Below the pieces are notes generated by a model. That model searched no databases. It worked only from the letters and a program-made list of their open reading frames with translations, and had not been told where the DNA came from. A stretch of DNA of 12,629 nucleotides, taken from contig PMST01000702.1 of assembly GCA_003168295.1 (NCBI GenBank), forward strand, positions 1-12,629. Direction: 5' to 3'. This stretch comes from Actinomycetota bacterium (GTDB taxonomy: Bacteria; Actinomycetota; Actinomycetes; Streptosporangiales; Streptosporangiaceae). Below, piece after piece: positions 1,385 to 9,747 of the stretch (the first letter of the stretch is position 1; the number at the start of each line of letters is the position of its first letter). The translations under genes and the position numbers were made by a program.

Positions 1385-2224
1385 GTGCGTCCCGATGCTG
1401 AGCGCGAGCGGTTGCGGCAGACGTTTGACCAGGCCGCTGACAGTTATGACCGGGTACGACCGGAATATCCTGACGAGCTGTTCGACGACCTCGTCGCGCT
1501 GACCGGGGTGACGCCGGGTGACCATCTGCTCGAGGTGGGCTGCGCCACCGGGAAGGCGACCCGCCCGCTGGCCCAGCGCGGCTTCCGGATCACCTGCGTC
1601 GAGCTCGGTGCCGGACTCGCCGCGACCGCCCGGGTGAACCTGGCCGGATGGCCGGTCGAGGTGATCCAGGGCGCGTTCGAGCAGTGGCAGCCGGAGGAGC
1701 CGGCCAGCCTGGTGTACGCGGCCACGGCCTGGCACTGGATCGATCCCGCCGTCCGCTACCAGCGGGCCTGGCGGGCGCTGCGCCCCGGCGGGCACCTGGC
1801 CATCTGGGGGGCGGGACACGTGTTCACTGACGGCGGCGACCCGTTTTTCCTCGAGATTCAGGACGTCTACGACGAGATCGGCGAGGGGGTGCCGCCCGGC
1901 GTCGCCTGGCCGTCGCCGTGGGCCGGGGAACAACCCGACGACCGGGCCGAGATCGAGGCCACCGGGCTCTTCCAGGTCACCGCCATCCGGCGGTACGACT
2001 GGGAGCGCGTCTACCCCGTCGAGGAGTACATCGAGCTGCTCAACACGTTTTCCGGGCACCTGTCCATGGCGGACTGGAAGCGCCAGCGTTTGTACACCGA
2101 GATCAGGCGGCGGCTGGCGATGCGCCCGGGCCACTCGGTGCGGCGGCACTGGGGCGCGGCGCTTCAGGTGGCGCGGCGCCGCGACGAGGTGGGGGCGGCT
2201 AGCGGGCCCGCTGGATCTGGCTGA
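1385..2224 (+). CDS. Class I SAM-dependent methyltransferase
   Basis: The product is 279 aa from GTG 1385. It has a Rossmann methyltransferase fold: the pre-motif FDQAADSYDRVRPEYP (14-29) is typical of a large family of small-molecule methyltransferases. Motif I is LLEVGCATGKAT (48-59), an acidic residue ends strand 2 (E73), and ATAWHWID (113-120) is followed by RALRPGGHLAIWG (130-142, motif III). The C-terminal half probably shapes the substrate pocket; the substrate is unknown. An in-frame GTG at 1319 would add 22 residues, but it has no ribosome-binding site and those residues do not resemble the family. I prefer 1385, which is preceded by a -10-like CATACT at leaderless distance. The last 26 bp overlap the 3' end of the convergent rho gene. 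Confidence 0.85.
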   Translation: MRPDAERERLRQTFDQAADSYDRVRPEYPDELFDDLVALTGVTPGDHLLEVGCATGKATRPLAQRGFRITCVELGAGLAATARVNLAGWPVEVIQGAFEQWQPEEPASLVYAATAWHWIDPAVRYQRAWRALRPGGHLAIWGAGHVFTDGGDPFFLEIQDVYDEIGEGVPPGVAWPSPWAGEQPDDRAEIEATGLFQVTAIRRYDWERVYPVEEYIELLNTFSGHLSMADWKRQRLYTEIRRRLAMRPGHSVRRHWGAALQVARRRDEVGAASGPAGSG

Positions 2225-3353
2225 GGAATTCGGCGTTGGAGGCCGTGTTCCTGGTCTTTTCGATGAGCAGCTCAAGGCCCTGCTGGTAATCCAGGCCGCC
2301 GAGCGCGCGGCGGAGCTGGCCGATCGCCGCGTACTCGTCGGGCGGCATCAGCAGTTCGTCATGACGGGTACCGGAAGGCATCGCGTCGATCGCCGGGTAC
2401 AGGCGCCGCTCGGCGAGCTCGCGGCGCAGCCGCACCTCCATGTTGCCGGTGCCCTTGAACTCCTCGAACAGCACGTCGTCCATCCGGGAGCCGGTGTCGA
2501 TGAGCGCGGTGGACAGGATCGTGAGCGACCCGCCGAACTCCACGTTGCGCGCGGCACCGAGGAACTGGCGGGGCGGCGTCAGCGCCGAGGCCGCGACCCC
2601 GCCGGCTAGCGTGCGGCTGTTGGCCGGGGCCACCACGTTGTAGGCCCGGCCGAGCCGGGTGATGGAATCGAGCAGCACCACCACGTCGCGGCCCAGTTCC
2701 ACCAGGCGCTTAGCGCGCTCGATGGCCATTTCGGCGACCCTGATGTGATCGGTGGCGGGCTGGTCGAAGGTGGAGTAGATAACCTGGCCGCGGACCGTCC
2801 GGCGCAGGTCGGTGACCTCTTCGGGCCGCTCTCCGACCAGCACCATCATCAGCTCGACCTCGGGGTGGCTGGCCGCGATCGCGGCCGCGATGACCTCCAG
2901 GATCATCGTCTTGCCGGCCTTGGGCGGGGAGACGATGAGGCCGCGCGAACCCTTGCCGATCGGCGCCACCAGATCGATGATGCGCGCCGTCGCCGAGGAG
3001 CTGCCGTCCTCCAGGCGCAGGCGCTCCTGCGGGTACAGGGGGGTCAGGTCGGCAAAGTGCGGCCGGCCCCGCGCTTGGTCCGGCGGCATTCCGTTGATGG
3101 TGTCCACCCGGATCAGCGAGCTGGACTTGCCGCCGCGTTTGTCGGGCCGCGCGGTCCCTTCGAGGAGGTCGCTCTTCCTGAGCCCGTACTGCTGGACCTG
3201 CCCGGCGGAGACGTGAACATCGGCCGGGCCGCGCCGGTAGCCGGAGGTCCGGACGAAGGCGCCTTCGGCGCCTATCTCGACGATGCCGGACATCGCAATG
3301 CCGGCCGGAGTTTCTTGCGGCGGGGAAGCTGATTCTTGCAGGGTTGCTGTCAT
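2199..3353 (-). CDS. rho: Short transcription termination factor Rho (probable second Rho)
   Basis: This is a Rho hexameric RNA-dependent ATPase of 384 aa. The cold-shock-like primary RNA-binding domain is at about 22-90 (AFVRTSGY, GPADVHVS, INGMPP). The ATPase core follows: Walker A PPKAGKT (143-149), catalytic Glu in GERPEEV (E175), Walker B VVLLDSITRLGRAYN (D229), the Q-loop (about 249-256), and arginine fingers R317 and R330 (SGTR). Housekeeping actinobacterial Rho usually has 600-700 residues, with a long Arg/Asp-rich insertion. This one lacks both that insertion and the Rho_N helical bundle, so it is probably a paralogue. Departures from the usual sequence include Gly for Asp before the catalytic Glu (G174), GGVAAS for GGVD (A254) and RQFLG for KRFFG. 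The start ATG 3353 has a good Shine-Dalgarno (AAAGGA, 3361-3366). A structured leader lies upstream. Confidence 0.93.
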   Translation of the reverse strand: MTATLQESASPPQETPAGIAMSGIVEIGAEGAFVRTSGYRRGPADVHVSAGQVQQYGLRKSDLLEGTARPDKRGGKSSSLIRVDTINGMPPDQARGRPHFADLTPLYPQERLRLEDGSSSATARIIDLVAPIGKGSRGLIVSPPKAGKTMILEVIAAAIAASHPEVELMMVLVGERPEEVTDLRRTVRGQVIYSTFDQPATDHIRVAEMAIERAKRLVELGRDVVVLLDSITRLGRAYNVVAPANSRTLAGGVAASALTPPRQFLGAARNVEFGGSLTILSTALIDTGSRMDDVLFEEFKGTGNMEVRLRRELAERRLYPAIDAMPSGTRHDELLMPPDEYAAIGQLRRALGGLDYQQGLELLIEKTRNTASNAEFLSQIQRAR

Positions 3354-3679: not shown

Positions 3680-4669
3680 TCATTCCGCGGGGCTAGCCGA
3701 GGGGCCGCGGCGGCGGCGCTGCGGGACGATCGTGTATTTCGGGTCCCGGGCCGACGCCATGCCCGCTTCGAAGATCCCGAACCGGGTCATCGCCGAGGCG
3801 GCCAGCAGCGACGCGCCGGACACGGCGGAAACGACGCGGCTCCGCCCGCCGAGCACGGCGCCGGCCAGCCCGCCCGCGGTCAGGAACTCGGCCACCCGCA
3901 GGATCGCGCCGGGCGTGCCGGTCTCGTACGGTTCGGCGATGCTCTGCCCATCGACCGCGGCGAGGCGCACCAGGAGCCGGCGTTTGGCGATCAGTTCCAC
4001 GCTCGCGCCGAGGACGGCCAGGTCGCGGGCGGGGCGGGCGTCCCAGGGGCGGACCGCCAGCAGGCCCAGGCCGCCGGCCGCACTGGCGGCGGAGCCCGCG
4101 AACACGTACGGCATCTCCCGGTGGCCCTCGTGCCAGCCCGGCACCGCCGTGTCGCAGATCAGGGCGGCGGTGTAGGTCGCGATGCCCGGGCCGAGGAGCC
4201 CCGCGCCGAAGGTGGCCGCGAGCCCGGCCTTCGGCAGCAGCCCGGTCCACCCGGAGACGGCGGCGGCGCCGGCTACCGGGCCGTACGCGGCCAGCAGCCA
4301 CGAGCCGACGCTCATCGGCGAACTCGGCTTGAAGACCCGGAGCATGTTCACGAACCGCCCGGGCCGGCCCAGGTCATGCACCAGCGCCACGGCGGACAGG
4401 CTGATCGCGCCGAGCGCGCCGGCCTTCGCGACCTTGGCCAGCTCGCGGTGGCCGGAGAGCTCGGCGCCCGCCGCCAGCACCGACGACCCGCCGGCCAGGC
4501 CGCCGAGGAACAGGTAGCCGGGTACGTCGGGTGTCTTCCACACCGGCTCCTTGATGACCGGGCGGCCGTAGTAGGAGGTGAACTCCGCATCGGGCACCAT
4601 TATTTCGGCCCCCGCTCGCCTCCGGGCGCCCTTGAGGCGGCCGGCGCCCGTTGGCTCGCGGGGGGTCAT
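3680..4669 (-). CDS. nrfD: NrfD-like membrane subunit of formate dehydrogenase
   Basis: This 329-aa integral membrane protein belongs to the NrfD/polysulfide reductase family. It takes electrons from the iron-sulfur beta subunit and exchanges them with membrane quinone. The family signature is clear: VHDLGRPGRFVNMLRVFKP, then SSPMSVGSW, at about 97-124. About eight TM segments are visible, near 51-71, 82-101, 121-140, 149-176, 188-206, 215-233, 256-275 and 279-300; the tail is basic (QRRRRG). The start ATG 4667-4669 overlaps the beta stop as ATGA and is preferred to an upstream in-frame start at 4744, which would lie inside beta. In classical Fdh-N the third subunit is a cytochrome b (FdnI); here NrfD takes its place, so no haem is expected in this subunit. 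Confidence 0.9.
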   Translation of the reverse strand: MTPREPTGAGRLKGARRRAGAEIMVPDAEFTSYYGRPVIKEPVWKTPDVPGYLFLGGLAGGSSVLAAGAELSGHRELAKVAKAGALGAISLSAVALVHDLGRPGRFVNMLRVFKPSSPMSVGSWLLAAYGPVAGAAAVSGWTGLLPKAGLAATFGAGLLGPGIATYTAALICDTAVPGWHEGHREMPYVFAGSAASAAGGLGLLAVRPWDARPARDLAVLGASVELIAKRRLLVRLAAVDGQSIAEPYETGTPGAILRVAEFLTAGGLAGAVLGGRSRVVSAVSGASLLAASAMTRFGIFEAGMASARDPKYTIVPQRRRRGPSASPAE

Positions 4670-5490
4670 GAGCGCCGCCGTCCCAGGCCCAGCGCCGCCG
4701 CCGTGACGGCGAGCCCGGCCGCGGCGATGCCCACGTGCCGCCACATGCTGGCCAGATCGCGCGTCGTCACCACCGGATCCGGCGGCAGGCCGTACACCTC
4801 GGGCTGGTCGAGCAGCAGGAAGAACGCTCCGCCGCCGCCGATGCCGTCGCCGGGGTCGTCGAGGTACAGCTGCGCCTTGTCCTTTCCGGCCGCGCGCAAG
4901 TCCTCGACCCGCAGCTGCGCCCGCTCGCGCAGTTCGTCAAGCGGGCCGAACTGGATGGAGTCGGTCGGGCACGCCTTGGCGCAGGCGGGTTCCATCCCCT
5001 CGCCCAGCCGGTCGTAGCACAGCGTGCACTTGTGCGCCTGGCCGTCCTCCTCGCGCCGGGCGATCACGCCGAACGGGCAAGCCGGGACGCAGTAGCCGCA
5101 GCCATTGCACACATCGTCCTGGACCACGACCGTGCCGAACTCGGTGCGGAACAGCGCCCCGGTCGGGCACACGTCCAGGCAGGCCGCCTCGGTGCAGTGC
5201 TTGCACACGTCGCTCGACATCAGCCAGCGCATCGCGTCCGGCCGGCCCGGGGCGGGCGGCGGGGCCGGCTGCTCGATGAACGCCACGTGCCGCCAGGTCG
5301 AGGCGCCCAGCCCCACCGTGTTGTCGTAGGACATGCCGGACAGGGAAATCCCGTCCTCGGGCACGGCGTTCCACTCCTTGCAGGCCACCTCGCAGGCCTT
5401 GCACCCGATGCAGACCGAGGTGTCGGTGAAGAAGCCCACCCGCGGCGGATGGTCCAGGTGGCCGGCCCGAGCGGCGGGATCGGTGCTCAT
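4666..5490 (-). CDS. fdhB: Formate dehydrogenase beta subunit, four [4Fe-4S] clusters
   Basis: This 274-aa ferredoxin-type subunit wires the alpha subunit to the membrane. Sixteen cysteines form four cluster motifs: C27/C30/C33/C37 (CIGCKACEVAC), C96/C99/C104/C108 (CKHCTEAACLDVCP), C128/C131/C134/C138 (CNGCGYCVPACP) and C155/C158/C170/C174. A single hydrophobic helix near 252-270 followed by RRRS resembles the C-terminal anchor of FdnH/FdoH (about 294-300 aa). There is no Tat signal. The start ATG 5488-5490 overlaps the alpha stop and its own stop overlaps the nrfD start, so the three genes form one coupled operon. Confidence is high for family and role. Confidence 0.95.
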   Translation of the reverse strand: MSTDPAARAGHLDHPPRVGFFTDTSVCIGCKACEVACKEWNAVPEDGISLSGMSYDNTVGLGASTWRHVAFIEQPAPPPAPGRPDAMRWLMSSDVCKHCTEAACLDVCPTGALFRTEFGTVVVQDDVCNGCGYCVPACPFGVIARREEDGQAHKCTLCYDRLGEGMEPACAKACPTDSIQFGPLDELRERAQLRVEDLRAAGKDKAQLYLDDPGDGIGGGGAFFLLLDQPEVYGLPPDPVVTTRDLASMWRHVGIAAAGLAVTAAALGLGRRRS

Positions 5491-8400
5491 AGGGCCGTCC
5501 CGGTGTCGTCGGTGATTCCGGCCCGCCGCGCGTACTCGCGCACCAGCTCGCGGACGGCCGGCCCGCGCGGGCGGCGGCCCGGCCGGATGTCGCAGGCCAT
5601 GGCCTTGACCTCCTGGATGTGCACGTTCGGGTCGAGGGACAGGTGAGCCAGGTCGTTGGCGGAATCGCCGGTGGACAGGCCGTTGGCGCCCCAGTGATAA
5701 GGCAGCCCGATCTGGTGCAGGCGGCGGCCTTGCACCTCGATGGGCCGGATCCGCTCGGTGACCAGGACCCGGGCCTCGATCGCGGTCCTGGCCGTGATGA
5801 TGGTGGCCCAGCCCGCGTTGGTCAGGCCCCGCTCGGCCGCGAGCTCGGGGGAAACCTCGCAGAAGAACTCCGGCTGCAGCTCGGCCAGGTAAGGCAGGTT
5901 GCGCGACATGCCGCCCGCGGTGTGATGCTCGGTGAGCCGGTAGGTGGTGGTGACGTAGGGGAACACGTCCGCACCTGGCTCGTCACCGACCGGCTGGAGC
6001 GGGTTCTGCCGGTGCCTGATGATCTCGCGGAGCGGATTGCGCTGCTGGCCGTACAGCGGGTTGGTGAACGGGGACTCCTGCGGCTCGTAGTGCGTCGGCA
6101 GCGGGCCGTCCAGCACGCCGGCCGGGGCGAACAGCCAGGCCTTGCCGTCCGCCTGCAGGATGAACGGATCAATGCCGGAGATCGCGGCCACGCCGGTGGC
6201 ATCGTCGGCCGGCCGGAACGACGGTGGCCGGTCGGCGACGAAGTCCGCCACGTCGTGCCCGGTCCACTTGCCCGCGTCCTCGTCCCACCAGACCAGCGCC
6301 TTGCGCTCGCTCCACGGCTTGCCGTCGGGATCGGCCGAGGCGCGGTTGTACAAGATCCGCCGGTTCAGCGGCCACGCCCAGCCCCATTCCGGCGCCACCC
6401 AGCTCTGCTCCCGGCCGGGCTTACGCCGGGCGGCCTGGTTCACCCCGTCGGCGCGGACGCCGCAGTAGATCCAGCAGCCGCAGGCGGTGGACCCGTCGTC
6501 CTTGAGCTGTGCGTAGGAGGACAGCGGCCGCCGCTGCGCGTCCCAGCCGTTGATCTCGGCGAGCACCGCGTCGGCCGACGGCTCCGCCAGCGGCCCCGTG
6601 ACCGGGTAATCCCAGGTGAGATCCAGCACCGGGCGGTCCATAGTGTCGGTGGAGGAGGCCAGCTTGGCCCGGATGCGGCGGCCGAGGTGATAGGCGAACC
6701 ACAGGTCGCTGCGCGCGTCGCCGGGCGGCTCGACCGCCTCGTGATGCCACTGCAGCATCCGCTGGGTGTTGGTGAACGAGCCGTTCTTCTCGGTGTGGGC
6801 GGCGGCGGGCAGGAAGAACACCTCGGTGCCGATGTCCTGCGTCCGCATCTCCCGCGTCTCGATCTCCGGCCCGTTCTGCCAGAAGGTGGCGCTTTCGATC
6901 ATGGCCAGGTCCCGCACCACGAGCCAGTCCAGGTTGGCCAGGCCCATCCGCTGCATCCGGCCGTTGGCCGAACCGACCGCCGGGTTCTCCCCGAACAGGA
7001 AGTACCCCTGGCACTTGCCGTCAATCTGCGCGACCACGGTCTCGTAGGTGCTGTGGCTGCCGGTCAGCCGCGGCAGGTAGTCGTAGCAGAAGTCGTTGTC
7101 TTTGCTGGCGGCTTCCCCCCACCACGCCTTGAGCAGGCTGACCATATAGGTGCTCATGTTCGCCCAGAAGCCCTTGTCCATGCTCTCGGCGTCCAGGTAG
7201 GTGGCGAGGTCCTCGTTGCCGTGCACATGCGGCATGGGCAGGTAGCCGGGCAGCAGGTCGAACAGGGTGGGGATGTCGGTGGAGCCCTGGATGGAGGCGT
7301 GCCCGCGCAGCGCGAGTATGCCGCCGCCAGGACGGCCGATGTTGCCGAGCAGCAGCTGCAAGATGGCAGCGGTCCGGATGTACTGCACCCCCACCGTGTG
7401 CTGCGTCCAGCCGACGCTGTAGACGAACGCGGTGGTGCGGTCGGGGCCAGAGTTCTCGGTCAGGGCCTCGCAGACCTCGGCGAACGCATCCGGCGGCACG
7501 CCGCAGACCTGCTGGACCATCTCCGGGGTGTACCGGGAGAAGTGGCGCTTCAGCACCTGGAACACGCACCGGGGCGAGGTGAGCGTCTCGTCCCGGTCCG
7601 GATCGGAGTGGGCCGGGGCCCCGCCGGCGCCGTGCGCCTCGCCGCGTACCGCCGCCCGCACCTCCCGGTGCTTGCGCCGGTCTTCGGCGCTGGGCCGGTC
7701 GCGCCGCCCGGCCGCCGCCGACATGTCGCCGCCCTGGTAGCGCCAGGCCTCGCGGTCGTAGCTGCGGTGCTCGGCGTCGAAGCCGGAGAACAATCCGTCC
7801 AGGTCTTCGGTGTCGGCGAAGTCTTCGGTCAGGATCGTCGGCGCGTTGGTGTAGTTCACCACGTACTCGCGGAAGTACTTCTCGTTGGCCAGCACGTAGT
7901 TGATGATGGCGCCGAGGAACACGATGTCGCTGCCGGCCCGCAGCGGCACGTGCAGGTCCGCCACCGCGCTGGTCCGGGTGAACCGCGGGTCGACGTGGAT
8001 CACCTTCGCGCCGCGCGCCTTGGCCTCCATCACCCACTGGAACCCGACCGGGTGGCATTCGGCCATGTTCGAGCCCTCGATCAGGATGCAGTCGGCGTTG
8101 ACCAGGTCCTGCTGGAACCCGGTGGCGCCACCGCGTCCGAAGCTAGCCCCCAGACCGGGGACGGTGGAGGAGTGTCAAATACGGGCCTGGTTCTCGATCT
8201 GGATCGCGCCCAGCGCCGTGAACAGCTTCTTGATCAGGTAATTCTCTTCGTTGTCCAGGGTCGCGCCGCCGAGGCTGGCGAACCCGAGCGTCCGGCGGGT
8301 CCGGTTGCCGTCCACCTCCCACTGCCAGCCATGCCGGCGGGCGGCCAGGACCCGGTCCGTGATCATGTCCATCGCCGTGTCCAGGTCAAGCGATTCCCAC

Positions 8401-8735
8401 GTAGTACCGAACGGACGCCGGTACAGCACCTGGTGCTGCCGGGCGTCGCCCGTGGTGAGCTGCAGGCTGGCGGAACCCTTGGGACACAGCCGCCCGCGGC
8501 TCACCGGCGAATCCGGGTCGCCTTCGATCTGGATGACCTTGGCGTCCTTGACGTACACCTTCTGCCCGCAGCCGACCGCGCAGTACGGGCAGACCGACTT
8601 GACCACGGAATCGGCGGTGGCCGTCCTGGCCGCGCGCTGGCGGCCGCTCTTGGCCGCGGCGCCGAGACCGCGCCGGTCGGGGCCGGCCAGCTGCCGGTAG
8701 ACCGGCCAGGACCCTATCCAGGTAGGGGTGCCCAC
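5487..8735 (-). CDS. fdhA: Selenocysteine-containing formate dehydrogenase alpha subunit (in-frame TGA = Sec)
   Basis: One gene of 1082 codons, read through TGA 8175-8177 as selenocysteine 187. It oxidises formate to CO2 at a Mo/W bis-molybdopterin guanine dinucleotide centre. The N-terminus has the [4Fe-4S] motif C49-x2-C52-x3-C56-x27-C84 with K86. The sequence ENQARI then Sec then HSSTVPGLGASFGRGGAT is the family's active-site stretch, and EGSNMAECHPVG follows. Frame is unbroken on both sides of the TGA, and both halves have full family similarity to FdnG/FdoG (about 1015 aa). Extra length includes a low-complexity Arg/Ala/Gly-rich insertion at about 335-381, between AWRYQ and SPRCVFQVLKRHFSRYTPEMV. 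No Tat signal or hydrophobic leader is seen. GTG 8735 is the first possible start: an in-frame TGA lies at 8745-8747 and GGAGGTGA lies 9 nt upstream. The true stop is TGA 5487-5489. Confidence 0.93.
8146..8177 (-). promoter_or_regulatory. bSECIS element directing selenocysteine insertion at UGA 8177-8175
   Basis: After the UGA, 18 nt pass before the loop GGUCU (8156-8152). The loop is closed by C8157-G8151, C8158-G8150, C8159-G8149 and C8160-G8148, then U8161-G8147 and G8162-C8146. From memory of E. coli fdhF, the same loop GGUCU stands at the same 18-nt distance, and a U lies five bases before the loop there too. SelB binds this loop to deliver Sec-tRNA. The hairpin lies wholly in coding sequence (VPGLG), as bacterial SECIS elements do. 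Confidence 0.88.
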
Positions 8736-8744
8736 AGCGCTGCG

Positions 8745-8752
8745 TCACCTCC
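8745..8752 (-). promoter_or_regulatory. Ribosome-binding site of fdhA
   Basis: GGAGGTGA on the minus strand lies 9 nt before GTG 8735. It supports the GTG start, which is also the only one possible because an in-frame TGA (8745-8747) lies within this same element. Confidence 0.75.
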
Positions 8753-8772: not shown

Positions 8773-8801
8773 TTGGTGGCAAGTATCCTCTACGCTACGA
8801 T
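8773..8801 (+). promoter_or_regulatory. Sigma-70-type promoter of the GH25 gene
   Basis: TTGGTG (8773-8778) and TACGAT (8796-8801) are separated by exactly 17 bp, predicting transcription from about 8808. The message would carry a purine-rich ribosome-binding site (GGGAGGGAGGAGGGG, about 8815-8829) before ATG 8836. The 100-bp region is divergent with fdhA, so the two promoters overlap or abut. A minus-strand GATACT at 8782-8787 is a weak candidate for the fdhA -10. Confidence 0.55.
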
Positions 8802-8835
8802 CTGTCCGGACGCCGGGAGGGAGGAGGGGCCGCCG

Positions 8836-9747
8836 ATGGCAGATGCCAAGGGTATTGATGTCTCCAACTTCGCCGGGGAATACGACTGGGCCAGCACATC
8901 GGGCTTGTCGTTCGGCATCTGCCGGGCTAGTCAGGGTCTCGGCGGGAGCGGCACGAACTCACCGGATCCCTACCTGGCCTGGAACTGGCCCAGGATCAAG
9001 GCCAAAGGGCTAGCCCGCGGTGCCTACCACTTCCTCAACCCCGGCCTGAGCGGGGCGGATCAGGCGAGCTACTTCGTCGAGACGGTCAGCAAGGTCGGCC
9101 TGGAGACCACCGACATGCTCTGGCTGGACAACGAGACCGCCGGAGCGTCCGTGGCCGGCGTGGCGGCCTGCGCCCGCGACTTCATGGCCAAGCTGGTGTC
9201 CTTGCGGCCGCACAACCCCCGCGGCGTGTACTCGTTCTACGACTTCATCGGCTCGGGCAACTGCGCGGGGCTGGAGTCCTATCCGCTGTGGCTGGCCATC
9301 TACCAGTCGGCCACGCCGAGCGCGCCCGCGCCGTGGAACGCCTGGAAGTTCTGGCAGTCCGGCGGGGCCAGCAACCATGACGACGACGCGTTCAACGGCA
9401 CCGCAGCGGAACTGAGCGCGTGGATCAGCTCATTCCAGCCGAACCTGGAGGAAGAAGTGCAGTCAGGCCAGCTCAACCTCGGCGCCGGTGCCGTCACGAT
9501 CATCTCGGTGCCGTGGGGCAGCGCCACCAACATCGCGTTCGGCTGCGACAACGGAGTCCAGGGCATGGCGCCCGCCGTCCTGCGGGTCGCCATCTGGGAC
9601 ACCCAGTGGCACGTCACGGCCAGCGTCACGGTGGACGGCACCAAGGGCCAGACCGTGCTCCAGTTCCCCGACGGGAAGAAGACCGGGGTGATCTCGGTGG
9701 TGCGGCAAGACGCCGGCCAGGTCATCGTCGGATACGAGGTCTCCTAG
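8836..9747 (+). CDS. GH25-type muramidase (lysozyme) without signal peptide
   Basis: The 303-aa product has a GH25 domain at about 5-200, which cleaves the MurNAc-GlcNAc bond of peptidoglycan. The family marks are KGIDVSNF with D8 near the N-terminus, GAYHFLNPG (62-70), the catalytic acidic pair in LWLDNETAG (D98, E100), and FWQSGG (172-177) followed by an acidic DDDAF segment. The 100-residue C-terminal region (about 205-303) is predicted beta-rich, with repeated WDTQWHVTASVTVDG-like strands. I do not recognise it; it may bind the cell wall or a carbohydrate. No signal peptide or TM is seen. ATG 8836 is chosen for its strong Shine-Dalgarno; an in-frame GTG 21 codons upstream lies at the -35 box and adds no convincing signal sequence. 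Phage origin or an unconventional export route is possible. Confidence 0.88.
   Translation: MADAKGIDVSNFAGEYDWASTSGLSFGICRASQGLGGSGTNSPDPYLAWNWPRIKAKGLARGAYHFLNPGLSGADQASYFVETVSKVGLETTDMLWLDNETAGASVAGVAACARDFMAKLVSLRPHNPRGVYSFYDFIGSGNCAGLESYPLWLAIYQSATPSAPAPWNAWKFWQSGGASNHDDDAFNGTAAELSAWISSFQPNLEEEVQSGQLNLGAGAVTIISVPWGSATNIAFGCDNGVQGMAPAVLRVAIWDTQWHVTASVTVDGTKGQTVLQFPDGKKTGVISVVRQDAGQVIVGYEVS

Follow-up and report, generated by a model that had tools for sequence, protein, structure and literature searches.

An actinobacterial formate dehydrogenase operon with an in-frame UGA predicted to encode selenocysteine

Introduction

The formate dehydrogenase (FDH) subunit FdnG of Escherichia coli is exported and acts together with a cytochrome b subunit, and the E. 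coli SECIS element contains a bulged U. Selenocysteine (Sec)-containing FDHs have also been published for Streptomyces and other actinobacteria. Streptomyces incarnatus has a Sec-containing formate dehydrogenase-O with a UGA codon, a SECIS element and selABCD (PMC4498112). The report on A. chiangmaiensis DSM 45062 describes three Sec-FDHs (FDH1 to FDH3), with formate removal needing selenite, and gives lengths of 1078 aa and 1089 aa for the Sec-containing alpha subunits of FDH1 and FDH2, respectively (PMC7176365). For the Geodermatophilaceae, a further report records a CUA tRNA-Sec and TAG-Sec genes, with FDHs among them (PMC5330540).

We analyzed a stretch of DNA of 12,629 nucleotides (the window), which almost certainly encodes an actinobacterial Mo/W formate dehydrogenase operon in which the UGA of FdhA would be read as Sec187 by means of SelB and a hairpin. 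The window and the S. incarnatus FDH-O are alike by description, as both have an actinobacterial FDH alpha subunit with an in-frame UGA and a SECIS element directly after it; a selA-D cluster lies near fdhA in S. incarnatus, whereas none is annotated in the 12.6 kb of the window (PMC4498112). Also by description, DSM 45062 shares with the window an actinobacterial multicomponent FDH with a Sec alpha subunit, but DSM 45062 was cultured and has growth and proteome data, whereas the FDH of the window is known from sequence alone (PMC7176365). The fdhA gene described here adds a further case of the kind published for Streptomyces and other actinobacteria, where it is ordinary, and it adds no new mechanism.

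Reading frame and product of fdhA

5487..8735, minus strand: fdhA, formate dehydrogenase alpha subunit, a single 1082-residue frame through the UGA (predicted Sec187)
8175..8177, minus strand: UGA codon, predicted Sec, residue 187, aligned with the X of 1KQF and 1H0H and represented by TGA, a Cys codon or TAG among the best 80 relatives
8745..8752, minus strand: GGAGGTGA, probable ribosome-binding site of fdhA, located by eye

As read from the ORF, the fdhA frame extended from GTG 8735 to the stop codon TGA 5489-5487, and its sole internal stop was TGA 8177-8175, in the context NQARI-U-HSSTVPGLG. A sequence-only reading of this DNA had reported this frame, its one internal TGA and a read-through product of 1082 residues, and both the coordinates and the count were correct. 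The probable ribosome-binding site GGAGGTGA, at 8752-8745, was 9 nt upstream of the GTG. Relatives were obtained from one scan of genome contigs and consisted of the best 80 of at least 592 that were confirmed, with 70 to 79% identity to the FdhA of the window. The best match started at residue 1 in 64 of these 80 relatives and at residues 3 to 10 in the other 16, which supported GTG 8735 as the start of fdhA.

The read-through product was above the cutoff for both NF041513 (formate dehydrogenase; 2002.8 bits over residues 6 to 1071; cutoff, 1400) and TIGR01553 (FDH-N alpha; 940.6 bits; cutoff, 814.2). Pfam domains of the 4Fe-4S, molybdopterin and dinucleotide-binding types were detected, with the Molybdop_Fe4S4 domain at residues 43 to 93. 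The top match among solved structures was E. coli FdnG (1KQF; 726.7 bits), followed by 1H0H (706.6 bits), and the three proteins share a sequence family and an active-site position: residue 187 aligned with the residue printed as X in both structures, within NQAR[IV]-X-H, where X is Sec in those enzymes. An alignment of this kind had been suggested in the sequence-only reading, and it bore out the placement of the TGA at the active-site Sec/Cys position of FdnG-type enzymes. Judged from these matches, the read-through product represents an entire FDH alpha subunit, of the FdnG family.

Substitution was purifying on either side of the internal TGA, with dN well below dS. The dN and dS values before and after TGA 8177-8175 were 0.115/0.568 and 0.145/0.611 in a comparison of the window with L001, 0.107/0.661 and 0.159/0.647 with L002, 0.137/0.531 and 0.184/0.501 with L011, and 0.115/0.547 and 0.166/0.561 with L022. 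Third-position GC was 0.90 upstream and 0.94 downstream of this codon. The earlier observation that conserved sequence flanks the TGA was in agreement with these values and with matches to relatives over approximately the whole length.

Codon at residue 187 in relatives

Among the best 80 relatives, the codon at the NQAR[IV]-x-H site was TGA in 70, TGC in 6, TGT in 3 and TAG in 1, and hence was either of the stop type (71) or a Cys codon (9) in all 80; a second motif match in L067, outside fdhA, was excluded from this count. The fdhA gene of the window therefore has the in-frame UGA, at a position occupied by Sec or Cys in homologues, that is characteristic of a selenoprotein gene. The restriction of this codon to stop-type or Cys codons in 80/80 relatives, the near-full-length matches and the purifying substitution on both sides indicated that the internal TGA was not due to chance.

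A tree was built from 81 rows by a quick method and rooted at its midpoint. All nine Cys genes grouped together in it, with an SH-aLRT value of 99, and the starred group that contains the window also holds L001, L013, L022 and L026, all of which have TGA. The single TAG was found in place of TGA at the Sec codon of Geodermatophilus sp. TF02-6 (L067, position 10565), which has the same hairpin as the fdhA of the window and differs from it in using TAG at the site. A tRNA-Sec-family match of this organism (L090 2257-2352) has the anticodon CTA and is called tRNA-Pyl by ARAGORN. Both the TAG codon and the CTA tRNA-Sec are explained by the UAG-Sec system known in Geodermatophilaceae (PMC5330540).

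A SECIS-like hairpin downstream of the UGA

8146..8162, minus strand: apical SECIS-like hairpin of six pairs, recognized by conservation, codon bias and Rfam SECIS_3

The loop of this hairpin, GGUCU at 8152-8156, starts 18 nt after UGA 8177-8175. The hairpin was scored at positions 16 to 32, counted from the U of the site codon, in the 72 stop-codon genes (the window, 70 TGA and 1 TAG) and the 9 Cys genes. A complete six-pair hairpin was present in 71 of the 72 stop-codon genes, including the window, and in none of the nine Cys genes; the lone stop-codon gene short of six pairs was L070, in which one pair is T-C. Variation was observed among the 72 genes in the loop (GGTCT in 49, AGTCT in 16 and AGTTT in 7) and in the third pair (C-G in 20, T-G in 8, T-A in 42, G-C in 1 and T-C in 1). 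Codon usage within the hairpin was distinctive, with GTT in 51/72 stop-codon genes versus 2.5% of Val codons in the remainder of the genes, CCC in 72/72 versus 29%, and GGA in 42/72 versus 6.6%. This preference at the hairpin for codons that are rare elsewhere in these genes pointed to selection on the RNA. Given that the sequences share ancestry and that all nine Cys genes fall in a single clade, the hairpin and codon counts are not independent events, and the contrast between presence and absence of the hairpin represents one evolutionary event.

Rfam SECIS_3 matched 8122-8180 with 24.6 bits (E of 0.00098 in the 141 bases given), which is below the gathering threshold of 63, and no RNA was detected in the whole window at gathering thresholds. 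When the 53 nt that start with the UGA were folded, the minimum-energy structure was not this hairpin (-20.7 kcal/mol versus -11.1 kcal/mol for the hairpin alone) and was no better than those of shuffled sequences (z of 0.00, with 88 of 200 as good). Overall, the SECIS hairpin that is expected just downstream of a Sec UGA was found on comparative evidence and not on the single-sequence fold.

A doubtful but possible extension is that actinobacterial fdhA genes carry a distinct, bulge-free class of SECIS, with six unbroken pairs, an RGU[C/U]U loop starting 18 nt after the codon and an RNA sequence that dictates the protein. This tentative suggestion is based on Val-Pro-(Gly/Ser), which was invariant after Sec in 72/72 stop-codon genes, and on the Cys genes, in which the Pro is replaced by Ala (7) or Val (2) and the full hairpin is missing. 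If it were true, the change from Sec to Cys would accompany release of the protein sequence from an RNA constraint.

Selenocysteine machinery

The search for machinery covered 79 genomes, those of all the best 80 relatives except L048, comprising 69 TGA, 9 Cys and 1 TAG genomes. Each of 14 control genomes gave a tRNA-Sec match at an E of 0.001 and 5 of them passed the family cutoff of 47, and for this reason the tRNA-Sec threshold was set at 60 bits. With this threshold, tRNA-Sec was detected in 68/69 TGA genomes, the TAG genome and 5/9 Cys genomes. SelA was present in 62/69 TGA genomes (61 over the cutoff; the match in L002, under the cutoff, lies where a contig ends), the TAG genome and 5/9 Cys genomes, and SelD was over the cutoff in 68/69, 1/1 and 7/9, respectively. 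The curated SelB cutoff was passed by only 31/79 genomes, and SelB was separated from EF-Tu-like proteins by judgement from the profile start, open-frame length, score and a SelB query (16 genomes); SelB was thus assigned to 65/69 TGA genomes, the TAG genome and 6/9 Cys genomes, in pieces only in L002, L043 and L058. Among the 69 TGA genomes searched, SelA was not found in L001, L022, L037, L043, L047, L055 and L066, and SelB was not found in L022, L047, L055 and L066. Only L066, which has the TGA and the hairpin, had none of tRNA-Sec, SelA, SelB and SelD detected; this locus is a contig of 4,044 bases from a Streptomyces draft assembly, which may be contaminated or incomplete. For the Cys genomes L063, L065 and L077, tRNA-Sec, SelA and SelB were all not found.

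The selB, selA, tRNA-Sec and selD genes are adjacent in Prauserella shujinwangii (L016, stretch L089), and ARAGORN detected tRNA-Sec within the fetched stretch of 6 of 23 fdhA loci (L006, L007, L008, L018, L020 and L028). No sel gene was recognized in the 12.6 kb of the window, either by Rfam at gathering thresholds or among nine Pfam-scanned ORFs, which were not SelA, SelB or SelD; the genome from which the window derives presumably carries this machinery elsewhere. The main claim of the sequence-only reading, that this FDH alpha subunit is a selenoprotein, was supported by the active-site position, the distribution of TGA/TAG (71/80) and Cys (9/80), the SECIS-like hairpin and the Sec machinery in most relatives.

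A nonsense mutation at TGA 8177-8175 in a decaying fdhA pseudogene would be consistent with a single in-frame stop and with the detection of sel machinery in the genomes of relatives only. Such decay is nevertheless very improbable, as 70 of the best 80 relatives share the TGA, dN downstream of it is much lower than dS, the hairpin is intact, and fdhB and the NrfD-like gene are intact after fdhA.

Several minor observations were made in these genomes. The Cys genome L075 (G074) had no tRNA-Sec of at least 60 bits and no SelA, and it had SelD and a SelB-like gene that is 51% to the SelB of L091; these two, beside a Cys FDH, may be left over from a former use of Sec. Two tRNA-Sec matches of at least 60 bits were observed in 6/79 genomes (L001, L003, L014, L021, L038 and L072), which may reflect a second sel locus, a mixed MAG or duplication. 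The SelD matches of L050 and L061, both over the cutoff, contained one in-frame TGA each (G049:C16:48923-49840 and G060:C12:831425-832345), and these proteins are possibly selenoproteins themselves.

Truncated database homologues

Among the 120 database homologues listed of 7997, eight were 89 to 100% identical to the FdhA of the window (P0002, P0003, P0004, P0006, P0037, P0045, P0092 and P0117), and all were 859 to 870 aa in length and covered 79% of the query. The four of these fragments that were examined start at MAECHPVG, downstream of the site codon. Their truncation suggests that all eight genes have TGA at the site. P0002 and the FdhA of the window are not identical, with one or more residues differing, and hence P0002 is a separate sequence. 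These near-identical entries are without the first 223 residues, and hence without the Sec and the entire Molybdop_Fe4S4 domain, and surveys that depend on predicted proteins therefore overlook the catalytic residue and underestimate the use of selenium by actinobacteria. The fdhA finding thus corrects annotation. The sequence-only reading had anticipated that gene callers would give hypothetical fragments or a pseudogene; fragments were indeed present in eight entries, but several of these were named "formate dehydrogenase major subunit" and not hypothetical.

An error of sequencing or assembly, by which a Cys codon (TGC or TGT) became TGA, would be in keeping with the Cys found at this site in nine of the best 80 relatives and in the full-length homologues P0005 and P0007. 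We give this explanation hardly any credence. The truncation downstream of the codon of all eight near-identical proteins among the 120 listed indicated that separate assemblies agree on the site codon, and the window carries both the hairpin and CCC, the Pro codon of the Sec type, whereas the nine Cys genes have Ala or Val codons and no full hairpin. Least credible of all is a variant code in which TGA is sense throughout (Trp or Gly), which the open frame alone would favor, since seven of nine ORFs checked in the window end with TGA (fdhA, fdhB and the NrfD-like, YceI, methyltransferase, membrane-protein and kinase genes; the rho and GH25 ORFs end with TAG) and the sense codons found at the site among the best 80 relatives specify Cys and never Trp or Gly.

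Operon partners, proposed function and topology

4666..5490, minus strand: fdhB, Fe-S electron-transfer subunit; TIGR01582, 194.5 bits (below the cutoff of 334.7); PF13247, 84.4 bits
3680..4744, minus strand: NrfD-like membrane subunit; PF03916, 52.1 bits (cutoff, 25.8)

The ATG of fdhB overlaps the fdhA stop codon as ATGA, and the start of the NrfD-like gene is likely to be ATG 4669, which would overlap the fdhB stop. With its score under the TIGR01582 cutoff, FdhB was not assigned as a beta subunit of the FdnGHI type, and the NrfD-like subunit had no NCBIfam match. Matches to FdhB and the NrfD-like subunit co-occurred with fdhA in 62 of the best 80 relative loci, with the FdhB match directly after fdhA (-49 to 199 nt) in 34 of the 62 and elsewhere in 28. 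The remaining 18/80 loci, without both partners, may be cut short or different.

With the UGA read as Sec, the operon would specify a molybdenum or tungsten formate dehydrogenase composed of FdhA (Sec187), FdhB (Fe-S) and the NrfD-like membrane subunit. SelB would bind the hairpin just after UGA 8177-8175 and deliver Sec-tRNA(Sec), and the codon would be read as selenocysteine without ending translation. Sec187 would coordinate the metal of the pterin cofactor, and electrons from formate would reach the membrane subunit by way of the Fe-S clusters in FdhA and FdhB and then, presumably, enter the quinone pool.

The twin-arginine pattern [ST]RRx[FL][LVI], a crude one, was matched in 0/80 relatives, and no such motif was seen by eye in the N terminus of the window FdhA; among 14 relatives inspected, L049 and L073 were without the CPYC anchor and were scanned over a shorter stretch. 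In contrast to FdnG, therefore, the catalytic subunit is probably cytoplasmic. Together with the NrfD-like third subunit, this result indicated that the complex is not simply FdnGHI.

Downstream of the operon, a short Rho of 384 aa (2199-3353, minus strand) scored 518.9 with TIGR00767, above the cutoff of 509.45, and 513 with NF041509, a short-form paralogue model, below the cutoff of 628. Its homologues, among the 120 listed, were Rho proteins of similar length (351 to 412 aa). The neighboring short Rho was considered as a part of the system and was dropped, as tblastn (E of 1e-8) detected it in 0/80 relative loci, some of which are short contigs. Divergent from fdhA is a GH25 lysozyme-like gene (8773-9747, plus strand; PF01183, 89.4 bits), for which the TTG given as the start probably lies too far upstream and ATG 8836 is likelier.
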